In this document: positions 37,245-43,466 of the stretch, piece by piece
Numbering within the stretch: the first letter of the stretch is position 1
How the letters are laid out: each line of letters opens with the position of its first letter
Origin: Polynucleobacter sp. UK-Mo-2m-Kol15
GTDB lineage: Bacteria; Pseudomonadota; Gammaproteobacteria; Burkholderiales; Burkholderiaceae
NCBI RefSeq assembly: GCF_018881505.1
Contig: NZ_JACVQC010000001.1
Span: forward strand, 1,285,927 to 1,349,926
Direction: 5' to 3'
Length of the DNA stretch: 64,000 bases
Notes under the pieces: model-generated
Seen by the model: only the letters and a program-made list of their open reading frames with translations
The model's database searches: none
Told to the model about the DNA's origin: nothing
Program-made: the position numbers and the translations under genes

Positions 37245-37868
37245 ATGCGCTTTATTGATGCAAAACAGTTTTGGAACGAGCGTTTCAACAAACCAGAGTT
37301 TATATTTGGCAAAGATCCCAATGAATATCTGGTTGAGCAAGCATCTAAATATCTAAAGCCAAACTCCTCCGTTCTCTGTATTGCTGATGGGGAAGGGCGC
37401 AATGGTGTCTGGCTAGCTAAGCAGGGTATGAACGTCACAGGTTTTGATATTTCTGAGATTGCGCTTGCGAAAGCTCATCAGTTTGCTGCTGATAATGCAG
37501 TTCATATTCAATATAACCTTTGTGATACTGATGGCTTTAATTGGCAGGCCAATTCATATGATGCTGTTATTGCTATCTTTATTCAGTTTGCTGACCCTGA
37601 AATGCGTGCCAGAATTTTCAGACAAGTACATCAAACTCTTAAACCAGGTGGTGTATTTATTCTTCAGGGCTACACACCTAAGCAATTGGAATATAAAACA
37701 GGTGGTCCATCACTGATAGAGCATCTGTACACCGAAGAAATGATTCGTGGGCTCAGTCAGGAATTTAATATTCTTGATCTACGGTGTTATGAAAAAGAAT
37801 TATCTGAGGGTACCAAACATAGTGGTATCTCAGCCCTGCTTGGTATGGTTGCTCAAAAGACTATTTAA
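37245..37868 (+). CDS. Class I SAM-dependent methyltransferase
   Basis: Soluble 207-residue Rossmann-fold methyltransferase. The opening FWNERFNKPEFIFGKDPNEY is shared with TehB/thiopurine-type small-molecule methyltransferases. Motif I is SSVLCIADGEGRNGVWLA near residue 46, the acidic SAM-ribose residue is in VTGFDISEIALAKA, and motif IV YDAVIAIFIQFADPE lies near 107. The substrate is unknown; detoxification of metalloid or thiol compounds would fit relatives. It ends tail to tail with modC, sharing 8 bases. Confidence 0.85.
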   Translation: MRFIDAKQFWNERFNKPEFIFGKDPNEYLVEQASKYLKPNSSVLCIADGEGRNGVWLAKQGMNVTGFDISEIALAKAHQFAADNAVHIQYNLCDTDGFNWQANSYDAVIAIFIQFADPEMRARIFRQVHQTLKPGGVFILQGYTPKQLEYKTGGPSLIEHLYTEEMIRGLSQEFNILDLRCYEKELSEGTKHSGISALLGMVAQKTI

Positions 37869-38982
37869 AAATAGATGACTCTTGAAACCTTCTTGGGTCA
37901 TTAATGGGCCTTAAGGGCATGATATGAATTTGATTACCATCGAACTCGAGATGCATTTGACCTCCAAGCTCCATGCATAAGCGCTTTACCTCCGCAGAGG
38001 AAGCCTCCCATTCAATCGTGTTTTCACTATCCTGAATTCTTAATTGAATCACTGCAATTTGACCCAGACTACTCATCCTTTCAACTACTACTGGTACGCT
38101 GGCGTTAGTCGGAATGTTATGAACGCTTAAACCGCTTTGGGGGATAACCCAAGCTACACGAGCTTTAGGTGGGATTTTGCCTTTATCGATAACGCTGAAG
38201 ACTTCTCTGCAGCCATCCCAGCTTAACTTTCCCGAGTCAAAAACGCCATGAAACTTATTGCTGATGCCAACCAATTCAGCAACCCTTGAATTTCTTGGCT
38301 TCTGAAATAGGGTCTGTGGAGTTGCAGTCTGCAAGCTAATGCCTTGATCTATTACCGTGATGCGGTCAGCCAATAAATCAGCCTCTCGTAAATCATGTGT
38401 TACCAATAGGATAGGAATATTCAAATCAGCGCGAAGCTCAGCCAATGTCTTGTAAAGACTTTGACGGGTTGGCGCGTCAATTGCTGAAAATGGCTCATCT
38501 AGAAGCAATGCTTTAGGTTGCCTTGCTAGCGCTCTTGCTAAAGCAACGCGTTGCTGTTGTCCGCCAGAAAGTTGGTGTGGCATGCGTTCATAAAGACTTG
38601 CAATGCCCATGCGATCCAGTAACTCCATGCTAATTGTCTTACGTTCAATTGCATTTAGTCCGGAGTTTTCCAAAGGAATCAATACATTGCCTAATGCGCT
38701 GAGATGAGGAAAGAGTGCGTACTGCTGAAATAAGAACCCACACGATCTTTCTGCAGGAGTAAGCTCAAGGGCTTTGCTAGCAGTACTATCAGCGTCAAGC
38801 CAGACTTCGCCATTACATTCAATTTTTCCGCTTGCTGTTTTATTTAGGCCGGCAATAGATCTGAGGACTGTAGTTTTGCCGCTTCCAGAGGGGCCAACTA
38901 AAGCATGAAGTTCACCAGGCGCACATTCCAGGCTAATGTGTAACGGGCTAGGGGTGACCTGATTAATTTTTACCATCAACAT
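37861..38982 (-). CDS. modC: Molybdate ABC transporter ATP-binding protein
   Basis: ATPase of a molybdate importer, 373 residues. Walker [18 protein letters not shown] near residue 33, Q-loop in [15 protein letters not shown], signature [17 protein letters not shown] near 139, Walker [16 protein letters not shown] region near 160, H-loop in [15 protein letters not shown]. The C-terminal 130 residues form a TOBE/MOP-like regulatory domain ([37 protein letters not shown]). It is coupled to modB (1-base overlap). No modA is next to it. The cargo is assigned by homology and by the molybdenum enzyme SoxC encoded across the divergent region. Confidence 0.85.
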
Positions 38983-39632
38983 TAATTCAACCCTCTGCGT
39001 CGAGTTGGATTACCGCCAAATATCCCATATGAAAGCGCAATACAAAGAAGCGACGTTCCAAGGAGTACAAGCGCTATAGTGCCGGCGCCAGCCGTGTCAA
39101 AGCTTTGGACCTTGTCATAAATTGCAATGGATGCTGTTTTCGTCTCCCCAGGTATGGCACCACCAACCATGAGGATCACCCCGAATTCCCCAAGAGTATG
39201 TGCGAAAGTGAGGGCGGCTGCACCAGTAATACCTCGCCAAGAAAGAGGCAGTTCTATTAAGCGAAATATTTGCCAGTTGCTGAGGCCACTCGCTTGAGCA
39301 GCTTCCCTAATTTCAGGGTTTATAGCCTCAAATGCCCTTTGGATGGGTTGAATGGCAAATGGGATATTTACTATCAATGACGCTATCAGAATGCCCGCGA
39401 ATGAAAACACGAGAGGGATGCCGAAAATGCTGGTGTTGCCAAAACAAACCAAGAGGTAGTAGCCCAAAACAGTAGGAGGAAGTACCAAGGGAAGTGCGAG
39501 GGCAGCCTCGAGCCATGGGCGACTTCTATTCAGCGTCACTAGCTTATGGGCTACCCATATCCCAAATGGGAGTATCAGTGCCATAGTCCAAAAAGCGAGC
39601 TTTAGGGATAGCATAATTGCATCAATATCCAT
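38982..39632 (-). CDS. modB: Molybdate ABC transporter permease
   Basis: Inner-membrane permease, 216 residues, about five transmembrane helices (LAFWTMALILPFGIWVAH, ALALPLVLPPTVLGYYLLV, GIPLVFSFAGILIASLIV, TFAHTLGEFGVILMVGG, TIALVLLGTSLLCIALSYGI). The EAA coupling loop is EAAQASGLSNWQIFRLIELP near residue 115. The LPLVLPPTVLGYYLL and TLGEFGVILMVGGAIPGETK segments are characteristic of ModB. Divergently arranged with the ArsR regulator of the sox cluster, leaving only about 70 bases for promoters. Confidence 0.87.
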   Translation of the reverse strand: MDIDAIMLSLKLAFWTMALILPFGIWVAHKLVTLNRSRPWLEAALALPLVLPPTVLGYYLLVCFGNTSIFGIPLVFSFAGILIASLIVNIPFAIQPIQRAFEAINPEIREAAQASGLSNWQIFRLIELPLSWRGITGAAALTFAHTLGEFGVILMVGGAIPGETKTASIAIYDKVQSFDTAGAGTIALVLLGTSLLCIALSYGIFGGNPTRRRGLN

Positions 39633-39649
39633 TCCTTGATTGTATTGCT

Positions 39650-39678
39650 TTGTGGCTTAGGGTATTTCACTATATAAG
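39650..39678 (+). promoter_or_regulatory. Candidate promoter for arsR-sox genes
   Basis: A TATAAG -10-like hexamer (39673-39678) follows a weak TTGTGG -35-like hexamer (39650-39655) with a 17-base spacer, placing the expected start near 39685, inside the first inverted repeat. The -35 match is poor (3 of 6), so this is a suggestion only. Confidence 0.3.
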
Positions 39679-39681
39679 TCT

Positions 39682-39700
39682 TTGGACTTTAGGAGTCCAA
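39682..39700. promoter_or_regulatory. Inverted repeat upstream of the ArsR gene, candidate operator
   Basis: TTGGACT-TTAGG-AGTCCAA: perfect 7-base arms with a 5-base spacer in the modB/arsR divergent region. It overlaps the expected transcription start and the AGGAG ribosome-binding site of the ArsR gene. It could be an operator or an RNA hairpin that hides that site. Confidence 0.5.
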
Positions 39701-39724
39701 TATATGCGTATATATGCATATATT
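39699..39724. promoter_or_regulatory. AT-rich 26-base inverted repeat, candidate ArsR operator
   Basis: AATATATGC-N8-GCATATATT: perfect 9-base arms around 8 bases, and the right half also contains the palindrome TATATGCATATA (39711-39722 region). Size, AT-richness and half-site spacing suit an ArsR/SmtB-type dimer. It spans the first possible ATG (39704) of the regulator, which argues either for autorepression at translation-start level or for use of the ATG at 39734. Confidence 0.5.
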
Positions 39725-40075
39725 ATTAAGGCAATGAATATTAAAGCCAAAGTCAAGAAAGCAACAAAAGATCTTTCTCCTAAAGAGATGGAGAAGGTAT
39801 TCACACGGGTTGCTCAATATTTCACTGTACTTTCAGAGCCTTCTCGTCTGCGCATTATGTATGCGGTGTGCAGTGGTGAAAAATCTGTTTCTGAAGTTGT
39901 TGAGTTGTGCGGCTCTAGTCAGGCTAATGTTTCACGTCACCTTGCAGAACTCCACAAAGCAGGCATTTTACTAAGGCGCAAAGAAGGCATTACTGTTTTT
40001 TACTCAATCGCAGACAACGCAACTGTAGAAATGTGTCAAACAGTGTGCGCCAAGATCGCGGAGAGTTTGCATTAA
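39704..40075 (+). CDS. ArsR/SmtB-family regulator of the sox cluster
   Basis: Winged-helix repressor, 123 residues from the ATG at 39704 (AGGAG 8 bases upstream) or 113 from the ATG at 39734. Residues about 35-100 form the DNA-binding domain: LSEPSRLRIMYAVCSGEKSV, then SSQANVSRHLAELHKAGILL as recognition helix and wing. Cysteines stand at 56, 69, 111 and 115; the metal-site ELCVCD of arsenic sensors is reduced to ELCGSS, so a metalloid site of that type is unlikely. ArsR-type repressors control sox genes in other bacteria and can sense persulfide through cysteine pairs. First gene before soxC, 34 bases apart. Confidence 0.88.
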   Translation: MRIYAYIIKAMNIKAKVKKATKDLSPKEMEKVFTRVAQYFTVLSEPSRLRIMYAVCSGEKSVSEVVELCGSSQANVSRHLAELHKAGILLRRKEGITVFYSIADNATVEMCQTVCAKIAESLH

Positions 40076-40109
40076 TTTTGAAGTATCTATTTATTAAAGC
40101 AGAGATTAC

Positions 40110-41510
40110 ATGAGCAAAAAACAATTGGAGATTAAAGCGCAGGATATTAGCGCTATCGAAAAGCCAGCTAATCAGGCTCGCTTGGTTAAAGCTCCTGAAC
40201 ATTTTATTTCCCAAGAGCTGATTGCTGATATCAATGCAAACGGCCTAGATGAAAATCGTCGCGGATTCTTGCGCAAAGGATTCATGTCTGCTTTGGGTGG
40301 CGCGACAGCTGGTTTGGCTGCCCCACTGGCAATTGCTGCCGGTGAGGGGGATCCAGCCATTTTAGAAAAGCAAGAATGGCAAACAACACTTGGTAAGAAT
40401 GTGGCAACTATGCCTTACGGCATCCCTTCTATTTATGAATCTAATCTTATTCGACGCGAGTCTCCAGGTTTAACACGTGTATCTGCTGCCTCGGTTGCGT
40501 TTACTCCGCTTCAAGGTTTGTTTGGAACGATTACTCCCAATGGATTACATTTTGAGCGTCATCATCAAGGTTGGTATAACGTCAACCCAGAAACCCATCG
40601 CTTGATGGTGAATGGCTTGGTGAAAAACCCACGCGTTTTCACAATGAACGACCTCATGCGCTTACCGTCTATCTCTCGCACACACTTCATTGAGTGTGGT
40701 GCAAACACTGGATTGGAGTGGGGCAATGTTGCTGTTCCTACCGTTCAGTACACCCACGGCATGCTTTCTTGCTGCGAATTTACCGGAGTACCTTTGAAGG
40801 TCTTGCTTGAGGAGTGCGGCGCCGACTTAAAAAAAGGAAAGTTCATGCTGGCTGAAGGTGGCGATGGTTCAGGGATGACTCGTACCATTAATCTCGAGAG
40901 CTGTCTTAACGACACGATCGTTGCTTGGGCTATGAATGGTGAGATGCTGCGTCCCGAAAATGGCTTTCCATTGCGTTTAGTAGTACCTGGTGTTCAAGGC
41001 GTCAGTTGGGTTAAATGGTTGCGCCGTTTAGAGGTGGGCGATATGCCTTGGAATTCAAAAGACGAGGCAGTGCACTACATTGAACTAATGCCAAATGGTG
41101 ATCACCGCCAATACGCCTCTATTCAAGAGTGCAAGTCTGTAATCACAACGCCATCTGGTGGACAACAGCTTTTAGATAAAGGCTTCTATAACGTGAGTGG
41201 CATGGCTTGGTCTGGCCGCGGAAAAATTACCCGTGTAGATGTCTCTTTTGATGGCGGCAATAACTGGCGGACCGCCCGCCTAGAAACCCCAGTTCTTACC
41301 AAATCCATTACTCGTTTCAATATTGATTGGGTATGGGATGGATCTCCTTCAATCATGCAATCTAGAGCGATAGACGATACCGGCTATATTCAACCTTCCA
41401 TTAAGGCACTCAGAAACGTACGTGGTACTCGATCCATCTACCACAACAATGCAATTCAATCTTGGAAATTAGATTCCAACGGCGAGGTGAGTAATGTTCA
41501 AGTTGGATAA
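40110..41510 (+). CDS. soxC: Sulfane dehydrogenase molybdenum subunit SoxC
   Basis: Molybdenum-cofactor subunit of SoxCD, which oxidises the sulfane sulfur bound to SoxY. It has 466 residues. A twin-arginine signal is present but starts late: NRRGFLRKGF at residues 49-58, followed by a hydrophobic Ala/Gly stretch. Sulfite-oxidase fold: molybdenum-ligand cysteine in THFIECGANTGLEWG near residue 197, RLVVPGVQGVSWVKWLRRLE near 293, and a C-terminal immunoglobulin-like dimerisation domain (SGRGKITRVDVSFDGGNNWR). It overlaps soxD by 17 bases. SoxCD presence predicts complete oxidation to sulfate without sulfur globules. Confidence 0.95.
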   Translation: MSKKQLEIKAQDISAIEKPANQARLVKAPEHFISQELIADINANGLDENRRGFLRKGFMSALGGATAGLAAPLAIAAGEGDPAILEKQEWQTTLGKNVATMPYGIPSIYESNLIRRESPGLTRVSAASVAFTPLQGLFGTITPNGLHFERHHQGWYNVNPETHRLMVNGLVKNPRVFTMNDLMRLPSISRTHFIECGANTGLEWGNVAVPTVQYTHGMLSCCEFTGVPLKVLLEECGADLKKGKFMLAEGGDGSGMTRTINLESCLNDTIVAWAMNGEMLRPENGFPLRLVVPGVQGVSWVKWLRRLEVGDMPWNSKDEAVHYIELMPNGDHRQYASIQECKSVITTPSGGQQLLDKGFYNVSGMAWSGRGKITRVDVSFDGGNNWRTARLETPVLTKSITRFNIDWVWDGSPSIMQSRAIDDTGYIQPSIKALRNVRGTRSIYHNNAIQSWKLDSNGEVSNVQVG

Positions 41511-42573
41511 ATTTAGAGCCCGTCTAGGATTTGCAACGCTTATCTTGCTTGCTACCCAATTAACATTTGCCCAAACAGGCTCGGCTAAATATCCCGGTAT
41601 TGGTAGGGCGGCTACACCTGCTGAAGTTGCTGCTTGGGACATTGATGTGCGCCCCGACTTTAAAGGGTTACCAAATGGATCTGGTTCAGTTGAAAAAGGT
41701 CAAGTCATTTGGGAGGCCAAGTGTGCAAGTTGTCACGGCACCTTTGGTGAGTCAAATGAAATCTTTACCCCGATCGCTGGTGGCACTACTAAAGATGACG
41801 TTAAGACTGGTCGCGTTGCCTCATTAAAAGATATGAAGCAGCCCCAAAGAACGACCTTAATGAAAGTGCCGACAGTGTCTACATTATGGGATTACATCTA
41901 TCGCGCGATGCCATGGAATGCTCCTAGGTCATTGTCGCCTGACGATACTTATGCTCTGGTTGCATTTATTCTGAATCTTGGTGATATCGTTCCAGATGAT
42001 TTTGTACTTAGTGATAAGAATATTGCCAAAATCCAGATGCCAAATCGAAATGGAATGACCACCAAGCATGGCTTTTGGAGTGTTAGCGGCAAACCTGATG
42101 TCAATGGAAAGGCTTGCATGCAGAACTGCGTTCAATTCGTTCAAATTGGCTCGACATTACCTGATTTTGCACGTAATGCGCATGAAAATATTGCAGAGCA
42201 AAATCGGATGTATGGTCCCTATCGCGGGGCGGATACCACTAAGCCGCCAATTAAAGAGCTGCCTGGCTCATCAGGAGTTGGTTTAGCTCACGCTTCAGAT
42301 ACCCATTCTTCATCAGCAAAAGGACCGGCTGCGTTGTTTAAGAATGAGAACTGTTCCGCCTGTCATGCCCAGAATGCTAAGTTGGTTGGCCCTTCGATCG
42401 CTGATATTGCTAAGAAGTATGAAGGTCAGAGTAGCGCAGTCGAAAAGTTGATGGCTAAAGTAAAAGTAGGTGGCGCAGGCGTTTGGGGCTCTATTCCAAT
42501 GCCAGCTCAAGCCCAGCTTTCTGACGAAGATCGTAAGACATTAGTGGTCTGGATGCTTTCTGGCGGCAAATAA
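41494..42573 (+). CDS. soxD: Sulfane dehydrogenase dihaem cytochrome c subunit SoxD
   Basis: Periplasmic cytochrome c partner of SoxC, 359 residues. Signal peptide LGFATLILLATQLTFAQ. Two haem-binding motifs: CASCH at residues 77-81 and CSACH at 287-291. A linker region (about 200-270) carries Pro/Lys-rich sequence and an extra pair CMQNC without the haem histidine. The 17-base overlap with soxC suggests coupled translation and a fixed 1:1 complex. Electrons are expected to pass on to small c-type cytochromes. Confidence 0.94.
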   Translation: MFKLDKFRARLGFATLILLATQLTFAQTGSAKYPGIGRAATPAEVAAWDIDVRPDFKGLPNGSGSVEKGQVIWEAKCASCHGTFGESNEIFTPIAGGTTKDDVKTGRVASLKDMKQPQRTTLMKVPTVSTLWDYIYRAMPWNAPRSLSPDDTYALVAFILNLGDIVPDDFVLSDKNIAKIQMPNRNGMTTKHGFWSVSGKPDVNGKACMQNCVQFVQIGSTLPDFARNAHENIAEQNRMYGPYRGADTTKPPIKELPGSSGVGLAHASDTHSSSAKGPAALFKNENCSACHAQNAKLVGPSIADIAKKYEGQSSAVEKLMAKVKVGGAGVWGSIPMPAQAQLSDEDRKTLVVWMLSGGK

Positions 42574-42658: not shown

Positions 42659-43111
42659 ATGAATCAGCAGCGTCGTAGTGTATTGAAGTATTCAGCAGTT
42701 TTTGGCTTGATGGCCTCTACAGGCCTTATCAGCACTGCTCAAGCTCAAGAGTGGAATAAGGCTGCCTTTGAGGGCAAAGGTATTGATGATGTGTTCAAGA
42801 TCATGGGCGCTGGTAGCCCAGATAAATCATCTTCAGTAACTTTAAACGCCCCCGATATTGCCGAAAACGGTGCAGTTGTTCCTGTTGGTATTACCACTAC
42901 GCTGAAGGCTGAGCAGATGGCAATTTTGGTTGAAAAGAACCCAAGCGCACTGGCTGCACAATTTTTTATTCCAGCAGGGACTGATTCTTTTGTTACTACC
43001 CGCATCAAGATGGGCCAAACATCCAATGTATACGGTCTGGTAAAGGCTGATGGTAAGTGGCTAATGACTGTTAAAGAAGTCAAAGTGACGCTTGGTGGTT
43101 GCGGCGGTTAA
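42659..43111 (+). CDS. soxY: Thiosulfate-oxidation carrier protein SoxY
   Basis: Sulfur carrier subunit on which thiosulfate is bound through a C-terminal cysteine. Start at the ATG at 42659 (AAGGAG 6 bases upstream), giving 150 residues; an upstream in-frame start at 42626 is not needed. N-terminal export signal with RRSVLKYSAVFGLMA, Tat-like, cleaved after AQAQ. The protein ends with the diagnostic carrier-arm motif GGCGG. Body has PEIAENG-like segment (PDIAENGAVVPVGI) typical of SoxY. SoxZ, 46 bases downstream, lacks a signal and is expected to ride out with SoxY. Confidence 0.97.
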   Translation: MNQQRRSVLKYSAVFGLMASTGLISTAQAQEWNKAAFEGKGIDDVFKIMGAGSPDKSSSVTLNAPDIAENGAVVPVGITTTLKAEQMAILVEKNPSALAAQFFIPAGTDSFVTTRIKMGQTSNVYGLVKADGKWLMTVKEVKVTLGGCGG

Positions 43112-43157: not shown

Positions 43158-43466
43158 ATGGGTGATCCAATGCGCGTAAGAGCTGCTGAAAGCGGCGGTA
43201 CTGTAGATGTAAAAATTTTGATGAAACATGATATGGAATCAGGACAGCGTAAGGATGCTGCTGGTAAAACAATTCCGGCTTGGTTCATCAGCACAATCAA
43301 TGTAAAAGCCAATGGCAAAGATGTGTTTAATGGCCAATTTGGTCCGGCAGTTTCTAAGGATCCATTCTTGAACTTTAAGTACAAAGGCGCAAAGGGTGAC
43401 AAGATCGTCGTGACTTGGAACGATAGTAAGGGCGACAAGCGCACTGACGAAGCAACCGCTTCCTAA
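43158..43466 (+). CDS. soxZ: Thiosulfate-oxidation carrier partner SoxZ
   Basis: Immunoglobulin-like partner of SoxY, 102 residues, no signal peptide. Family segments: MRVRAAESGGTVDVKILMKH at residues 4-23, MESGQRKDAAGKTIPAWFI near 25, NGKDVFNGQFGPAVSKDPFL near 53 and GDKIVVTWNDSKGDKRTDEA at the end. Good ribosome-binding site AAAGAGGAAGC. Forms the SoxYZ heterodimer. Confidence 0.97.
   Translation: MGDPMRVRAAESGGTVDVKILMKHDMESGQRKDAAGKTIPAWFISTINVKANGKDVFNGQFGPAVSKDPFLNFKYKGAKGDKIVVTWNDSKGDKRTDEATAS

Follow-up and report, generated by a model that had tools for sequence, protein, structure and literature searches.

The longer of two inverted repeats lying between the divergent modB and sox genes of a Polynucleobacter genome (IR2, AATATATGC-N8-GCATATATT) is very probably a DNA operator of the SoxR-like ArsR regulator encoded downstream, which is predicted to repress its own gene together with the sox genes behind it. 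This option, one of those raised in the initial annotation of the region, is well supported for IR2 by conservation, by the geometry of the site and by its co-occurrence with the regulator, and the comparison of sequences also points to loss of the site where the regulator is absent or replaced. The second repeat (IR1, TTGGACT-N5-AGTCCAA), which had been put forward beside it, is ordinary and best read as chance.

The window, that is, the whole stretch of 64,000 nucleotides analysed, belongs to a host genome of 2.18 Mb, and its relevant features are collected in Table 1. The gene names given earlier hold, with ModB, SoxC, SoxY and SoxZ passing their NCBIfam cut-offs and the regulator being an ArsR protein. 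Both repeats are likewise present as described, sharing the two bases 39699-39700, but they are not nested, as had been said; they overlap end to end. The gene order recurs in 67 orthologue loci, modB being divergent from soxR in 66 (the exception is L134) and soxC following in 66 (the exception is L112, a short contig). No ModE above its cut-off was found in the window's genome, where the best match to the profile (34.1 bits against a cut-off of 98.5) is a protein outside the window with a PBP_like domain and a sub-threshold HTH_1 match, and ModE control of modBC was rejected for this reason; among the genomes searched, 1/61 has a ModE above the cut-off. The only ModA above its cut-off (180 bits; G000:C10:1766227-1766877) also lies outside the window, far from modBC. 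In L075, a PBP_like protein with a weak HTH_1 match (593-1618) might be a molybdate regulator.

Table 1. Repeats, conserved boxes and genes around the modB-soxR intergenic region (window positions)
Feature	Position	Strand	Remarks
modC-like ABC ATPase	37861..38982	-	ABC_tran; among the matches listed, no NCBIfam equivalog above its own cut-off
modB, molybdate permease	38982..39632	-	TIGR02141 above cut-off
ATTGTA (TACAAT on the - strand)	39639..39644	-	adjoins the modB start; also at 4/19 readable modB loci without a close soxR orthologue
AGGGT-N4-CNCTATA	39659..39674		missed by the initial annotation; stronger neighbour of the inverted repeats; candidate activator site or promoter part
IR1, TTGGACT-N5-AGTCCAA	39682..39700		arms TTGGACT 39682-39688 and AGTCCAA 39694-39700; best read as chance; left arm unconserved
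GT(C/T)NAA(T) box in the right arm of IR1	39695..39701		T 39696 and A 39699 invariant in 57/57 rows
IR2, AATATATGC-N8-GCATATATT	39699..39724		arms 39699-39707 and 39716-39724; proposed operator of the SoxR-like ArsR
IR2 core, ATATGC-N8-GCATAT	39702-39721		conserved
SoxR-like ArsR/SmtB regulator, 113 aa	39734..40075	+	likely start ATG 39734; alternative upstream ATG 39704
soxC, sulfite/sulfane dehydrogenase, molybdopterin domain	40110..41510	+	TIGR04555 above cut-off
soxD-like c-type cytochrome	41494..42573	+	named from position and cytochrome c domains
soxY	42659..43111	+	TIGR04488 above cut-off
soxZ	43158..43466	+	TIGR04490 above cut-off

The two repeats differ in how readily chance produces them, as judged from 20 first-order Markov simulations of the window with its dinucleotide composition. 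Perfect 7-bp arms with a spacer of at most 5 occur 39 times in the window versus 30.5 times in simulated sequence, and IR1 is thus unremarkable. Perfect 9-bp arms with a spacer of at most 8 number 10 versus 2.6 simulated, so that such arms by themselves are not unique either. IR2 is longer than earlier described, forming a 26-bp near-palindrome with 12/13 symmetric pairs, and 26-mers with at least 12/13 symmetric pairs are encountered once in 64 kb, namely, at IR2, against 0.05 times in simulations. When the local AT-rich piece of 121 nt is simulated, the probabilities are 0.11 for the 7-bp kind, 0.016 for the 9-bp kind and 0.0008 for the 26-mer kind.

Conservation was assessed in the 67 orthologue loci (L076-L142, from Polynucleobacter and betaproteobacterial assemblies) plus the window, 68 in total, all of which were kept for site-score and exact-string counts. 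Across these loci, which are related and hence not independent, and from which the 12-base motif ATATGC-N8-GCATAT was itself derived before being scored on them, the best score near the gene is 12/12 in 38, 11 in 20, 10 in 7 and 9 in 3 (L099, L128 and L137), such that 65/68 carry a site of 10-12 (at most two changes) before the ArsR gene. Simulations, modB loci without a close orthologue and homologues away from soxC served as motif controls; 3400 simulated regions gave no score of 12, with scores of at least 11 in 0.24% and of at least 10 in 2.3%. The exact string TATGC-N8-GCATA is found in 39/67 loci, and sites are weak or stretched in L099, L113 and L128. Upstream of soxR in L113 and L099, the operator region looks like a short run of ATATAC/ACATAC repeats in which the core is not clear. 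The sister clade L137-L141 displays, at the same place, AAATATGCAT- and ATGCATATTT-type arms about 12 bases apart and no plain N8 site, a region that is, by its sequence, a putative rearranged or multiple operator.

Column by column, in an alignment of 59 rows including the window (L099, L113 and L136-L142 left out), the left arm of IR1 holds 0.08 bits per column and its right arm 1.24, compared with 1.81 and 1.64 for the arms of IR2 and 1.27 for its spacer; the flanks at 39676-39681 and 39725-39733 hold 0.39 and 0.51. The alignment check suggested in the initial annotation, in which the arms are set against the surrounding bases, therefore divides the two repeats, going against IR1, whose left arm is unconserved, and in favour of IR2, whose arms are conserved. 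Arm pairing in a second alignment (A4, 57 rows, with L099, L113, L128, L130 and L136-L142 left out) reaches 92.7% of cells for IR2 versus 7-70% in slid controls. Shuffled rows pair IR2 at 92.4%, as well as the real ones, and are uninformative here given how little the columns differ between rows. In A4, 30/57 rows have gaps at the outer bases of the left IR2 arm, and therefore only the ATATGC core is general.

The ATG at 39704, regarded in the initial annotation as the first of the regulator, is probably not its start codon. In-frame stops separate the site from the gene at 37/68 loci, the frame is open with an ATG within or upstream of the site at 12/68, and an ATG or GTG stands below the site at 63/68, the counterpart of which in the window is ATG 39734. 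Given these counts, ATG 39734 is the likelier start; the site most likely falls in the promoter-leader region rather than in coding sequence. Conservation is also lacking at AGGAG (39691-39695), where the commonest letter accounts for 34-80% across the five columns, and at the upstream ATG, which leaves the proposed combination of an operator with an RNA hairpin over AGGAG unsupported.

The presence of the site follows that of the regulator. All eight soxC-linked homologues in L030-L037 (43-68% identity) have sites scoring 10-12, two of them (L036 and L037) coming from two other families, with the proviso that this group overlaps the set of 67 loci (L031 is L141, L032 is L139, and L030 resembles L134). 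The site of L036 pairs ATGC with GAAT and is thus half in SqrR form. Homologues without soxC in the available sequence (L039, L040, L041 and L143) score 7-8. As a further control, modB loci without a close soxR orthologue were drawn from 25 genus members in which the best regulator match was 5e-10 or weaker, or none; 20 were taken as loci, of which 19 have readable upstream DNA (L179 has no readable upstream part, and L173 offers about 100 bases only). Among these 19, 18 score 9 or less, and the one scoring 10, L183, has no soxR or soxC match. Most telling are two of these loci, L172 and L174, which carry a different ArsR between modB and soxC, described as SqrR-type on the basis of alignment and of a cysteine spacing of 66 that matches the published sensors; the site is missing there (best score 8), and AGGGT is retained. 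L174 itself carries a 27%-identical ArsR. These two loci are, on sequence grounds, an apparent natural exchange of regulator plus operator. With zero or one mismatch allowed, the fuller pattern matches the window's genome at IR2 alone. In five genomes lacking a close soxR (L164, L167, L169, L170 and L171), the immediate divergent neighbours of modB are frames that resemble soxY and soxZ by eye, and site scores are 7-9.

The regulator belongs to the ArsR/SmtB family, its winged-helix domain exceeding the cut-offs (HTH_5, 48.3 bits against 22; NF033788, 75 bits against 55) and its fold matching as well. By sequence, it is closest in the PDB to a chain of entries 6o8k-6o8o, titled SqrR, and its structure model (pLDDT 92.9) also finds SqrR entries as the best structural matches; the nearest relative among named genomes is from Polynucleobacter sp. 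78F-HAINBA (93% identity). The protein has four cysteines, C46, C59, C101 and C105, conserved among 33 aligned homologues in 29, 27, 33 and 33, respectively. C46, in alpha2, aligns three residues after the SqrR cysteine, and the last SqrR cysteine lies beyond the aligned stretch. From C46 to C101 and C105 is 55 and 59 residues, which differs from the pair 66-67 apart of the SqrR/BigR/SoxR class: YgaV of Escherichia coli has C31/C98 (67 apart) in the accessible part of PMC9774250, and SoxR of Hyphomicrobium denitrificans has Cys50/Cys116 (66 apart) in that of PMC10451225. The BigR equivalog NF040642 gives a profile relationship (E 8.7e-12), but the window protein scores 45 bits against a cut-off of 155 and is not a member. 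If context guides, the regulator may work like SqrR or SoxR, even though it falls outside this sensor class by cysteine spacing and by profile; the sulfur signal rests on gene context because the cysteines are not spaced as in SqrR or SoxR.

The geometry of IR2 resembles that of known ArsR-type operators, albeit with half-sites of its own. The SqrR consensus is ATTC-N8-GAAT in the available text of PMC9774250, and the system of SqrR (Rhodobacter capsulatus) and YgaV is the nearest in several respects, sharing the ArsR fold, providing the best PDB sequence and fold match and using two half-sites with an N8 gap. Inverted half-sites with this gap occur exactly in 38/68 loci and with at most two changes in 65/68; in contrast, the half-sites are ATGC/GCAT in the window and ATGC/GAAT in homologue L036 rather than ATTC/GAAT. 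It should be noted that the same portion of PMC9774250 reports binding of YgaV close to its own start site and at sigma-factor sites, and also to a katG site that lacks the ATTC-N8-GAAT motif. SoxR of H. denitrificans and its relatives, as far as the accessible part of PMC10451225 goes, are ArsR repressors tied to sox genes, as is predicted for the window protein, and the H. denitrificans protein binds intergenic regions that were picked for inverted and direct repeats; no operator consensus is stated in that part. The metal sensors AzuR, SmtB and ZiaR use 12-2-12 inverted repeats, a 26-bp near-palindrome type located, like IR2, in the promoter-start region, according to PMC8790569, but the repeats shown there have halves of the TGA...TCA type, and the neighbours here are sox and mod genes. 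IR2 is very probably an operator of a known kind, an ArsR switch, with its own half-site code.

Two further boxes accompany the operator. In soxR loci, AGGGT-N4-CNCTATA is conserved as strictly as the operator core, AGGGT being found in 68/68 and AGGGT-N4-CNCTAT in 66/68, and among the 56 loci with a complete element and an operator score of 11 or 12, 52 have the element beginning 41 or 43 bp ahead of the operator. The genome has one exact copy of AGGGT-N4-CNCTATA, and matches with one mismatch are rarer than in the reversed control. AGGGT is present in L030, L034 and L035, where no modBC is seen, and absent in L036 and L037. The GT(C/T)NAA box (39695-39700) stands at a constant distance from CTAT in all aligned rows but L092 and L133, and the start of the operator varies by two bases, earlier or later, relative to these boxes. 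Extended to GT(C/T)NAA(T), it is a candidate for either the -10 of soxR (T-N2-AAT, + strand) or the -35 of modB (TTGGAC, - strand). T-N2-AAT as a -10 on the + strand could put the operator over the start site and AGGGT-N4-CNCTATA near -42, as the element would be centred roughly 42 bp upstream of the start site guessed from this box; on the - strand, TTGGAC/TTGAC with TATAGT could form a modB promoter with a long spacer. The soxR reading of the boxes is favoured because L030 and L134, which are without modBC, keep AGGGT and the spacing, with CTATA reading CTATT in both. ATTGTA, TACAAT on the - strand, is a candidate -10 of modB. A sigma-70 consensus scan gave 1 match versus 1.2 in shuffles, so that conservation is what these promoter assignments rest on.

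Similar palindromes are not confined to soxR. Exact TATGC-N8-GCATA occurs in 72/101 genomes, the short pattern alone being unspecific, and a spacing control, the gap-6 variant, is absent from all 101. The window's genome has the exact string twice, at IR2 and at C10:1851151, which sits between frames labelled by eye as pdxA-like and LysR-regulator-like. A loose pattern with two mismatches gives 849 matches per strand in this genome versus 493 in the reversed control and is uninformative for a regulon, and the fuller pattern with three mismatches finds 4 places versus 4 in the control, IR2 alone being without mismatch. One of these, C10:155793 (G000:C10:155793-155812), the second place for the fuller pattern, is conserved: G000, G013 and G060 (L194, 3493; L192, near 3666) each have a similar palindrome some 10 nt past the stop of one and the same gene, labelled TonB-like by eye. 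In G013 and G060, it is followed by TGTCGTTTTAAACGACA, and no obvious target gene was seen; it is perhaps a different recurrent element. In L203 (G007), a close copy of TGTCGTTTTAAACGACA is found no more than about 60 bp from the site. Sister Polynucleobacter hold further sites scoring 11/12 (L187, 8899 and 8923; L193, 3624; L190, 3797 and 8675; L188, 3484; L189, 4076), next to what appear by eye to be cydAB, a Crp/FNR gene, YeeE-type transporters and an operon ending in a SqrR-like ArsR gene; G007 (L190) has two such sites and no close SoxR.

These look-alikes bear on whether IR2 is bound by some other regulator, for instance the Crp/FNR protein encoded in the cydAB cluster, an ArsR paralogue of SqrR type or the protein that uses the look-alikes. 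Their matching places behind the TonB-like gene in three genomes suggest that another protein may use a similar palindrome, which lowers the odds that IR2 is the ArsR operator, and those beside the Crp/FNR gene or upstream of the operon ending in a SqrR-like ArsR, together with the two sites in G007, point in the same direction. However, the window's genome has no cydAB-cluster Crp/FNR (best match 23% identity), and among the 14 Crp/FNR orthologues examined, with a second copy in G011 left out, 10 have no site of at least 10 within 250 bp upstream, an inconsistency for which this gene was rejected as the partner of the site. Moreover, the two sox loci with a SqrR-type ArsR have no such site, and the site accompanies soxC-linked SoxR into two other families. 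Binding of IR2 by another regulator is thus unlikely. Even less probable is an RNA-level role for IR2, as a hairpin in the leader of soxR that would hide the ribosome-binding site. The region does fold better than shuffles (z -3.1, with 1/200 shuffles as good), and two IR2 pairs have changed on both sides, in one sequence each. Against this, any DNA palindrome yields a hairpin, similar palindromes also lie behind or between other genes, AGGAG and ATG 39704 are not conserved, of 16 changed cells at the two G-C core pairs, 15 are altered on one side only or do not pair, and no Rfam match up to E 1 appears in 39400-40150.

A role of IR1 as a genuine second operator, for a regulator of modBC, is the least credible of these readings and can hardly be entertained. 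It is a perfect 7-bp inverted repeat with a right arm that overlaps a conserved box, but its arm cells pair at 39.9% in the 57 rows, like slid (33-46%) and shuffled (38.7%) controls, repeats of its kind are near chance in number in the window, and the genome has no ModE above the cut-off. Two separate operators were rejected on the chance-level count and on arm pairing like that of controls. The initial annotation's picture of two different symmetric sites likewise gives way at IR1, where the box in the right arm is kept independently of the almost information-free left arm, and hence a second regulator there is without evidence. Somewhat better placed, though still doubtful, is the idea that the same operator also represses divergent modBC, by which molybdate uptake would be co-induced with the molybdenum enzyme SoxC. 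The position of modB opposite soxR in 66/67 loci and the molybdopterin domain of SoxC are in keeping with it, as is the GT(C/T)NAA box, which reads TTN(A/G)AC on the - strand, -35-like, at a nearly fixed gap to TATAG. Yet the gap between the TTGAC-like sequence and TATAG is 19-20 bp, longer than usual; AGGGT, CTAT and their spacing are kept in L030 and L134, where no modBC is seen, and so need not serve modB; ATTGTA, the possible -10 of modB, is 55-85 bp from the operator; and the consensus promoter scan gives nothing above shuffles.

With IR2 as the predicted operator of the SoxR-like ArsR, a dimer would sit on the two ATATGC half-sites, the GC pairs of which are one helical turn (10 bp) apart. 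The operator would then lie between the conserved promoter-like boxes and the likely start codon, such that transcription of soxR and of soxC-soxD-soxY-soxZ would be blocked. The reduced dimer would hold IR2 until released by a sulfur signal: a sulfane-sulfur product would probably modify C46 together with C101 and/or C105, and the DNA would be freed. Conservation, geometry, co-occurrence and loss come directly from the sequence comparison, whereas binding, repression, an operon, the sulfur signal and the cysteine chemistry are inferred; the mechanism beyond IR2 as the regulator's site is drawn by analogy with H. denitrificans SoxR (accessible parts of PMC10451225 and PMC12423496) and SqrR/YgaV (that of PMC9774250).

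Polynucleobacter is an abundant freshwater genus. Among the matches listed in open-licence PubMed Central, no paper on Polynucleobacter sox regulation or on this promoter was found by title or abstract start, and searches of the same scope on modBC together with sox clusters, and on the SqrR consensus sequence, gave, among the matches listed, no paper on this promoter. What is of note is the co-change of regulator and site, along with the AGGGT element. A more speculative proposal, which we consider rather improbable, is that Polynucleobacter sox genes are governed by a separate sulfur-sensing ArsR branch with an ATGC-N8-GCAT code and relocated cysteines (C46 with C101/C105), and that the locus-specific AGGGT-N4-CNCTATA recruits an activator, amounting to a repressor-plus-activator switch. 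If this were true, a wider sulfur regulon would emerge that takes in the sister-species sites close to cydAB and to genes of sulfide detoxification. With a predicted operator defined to the exact base, an apparent exchange of the regulator in two genomes and conserved cysteines spaced unlike those of the known sensors, the locus would provide a compact, testable case of co-change between the sensor and the DNA code in the ArsR family.
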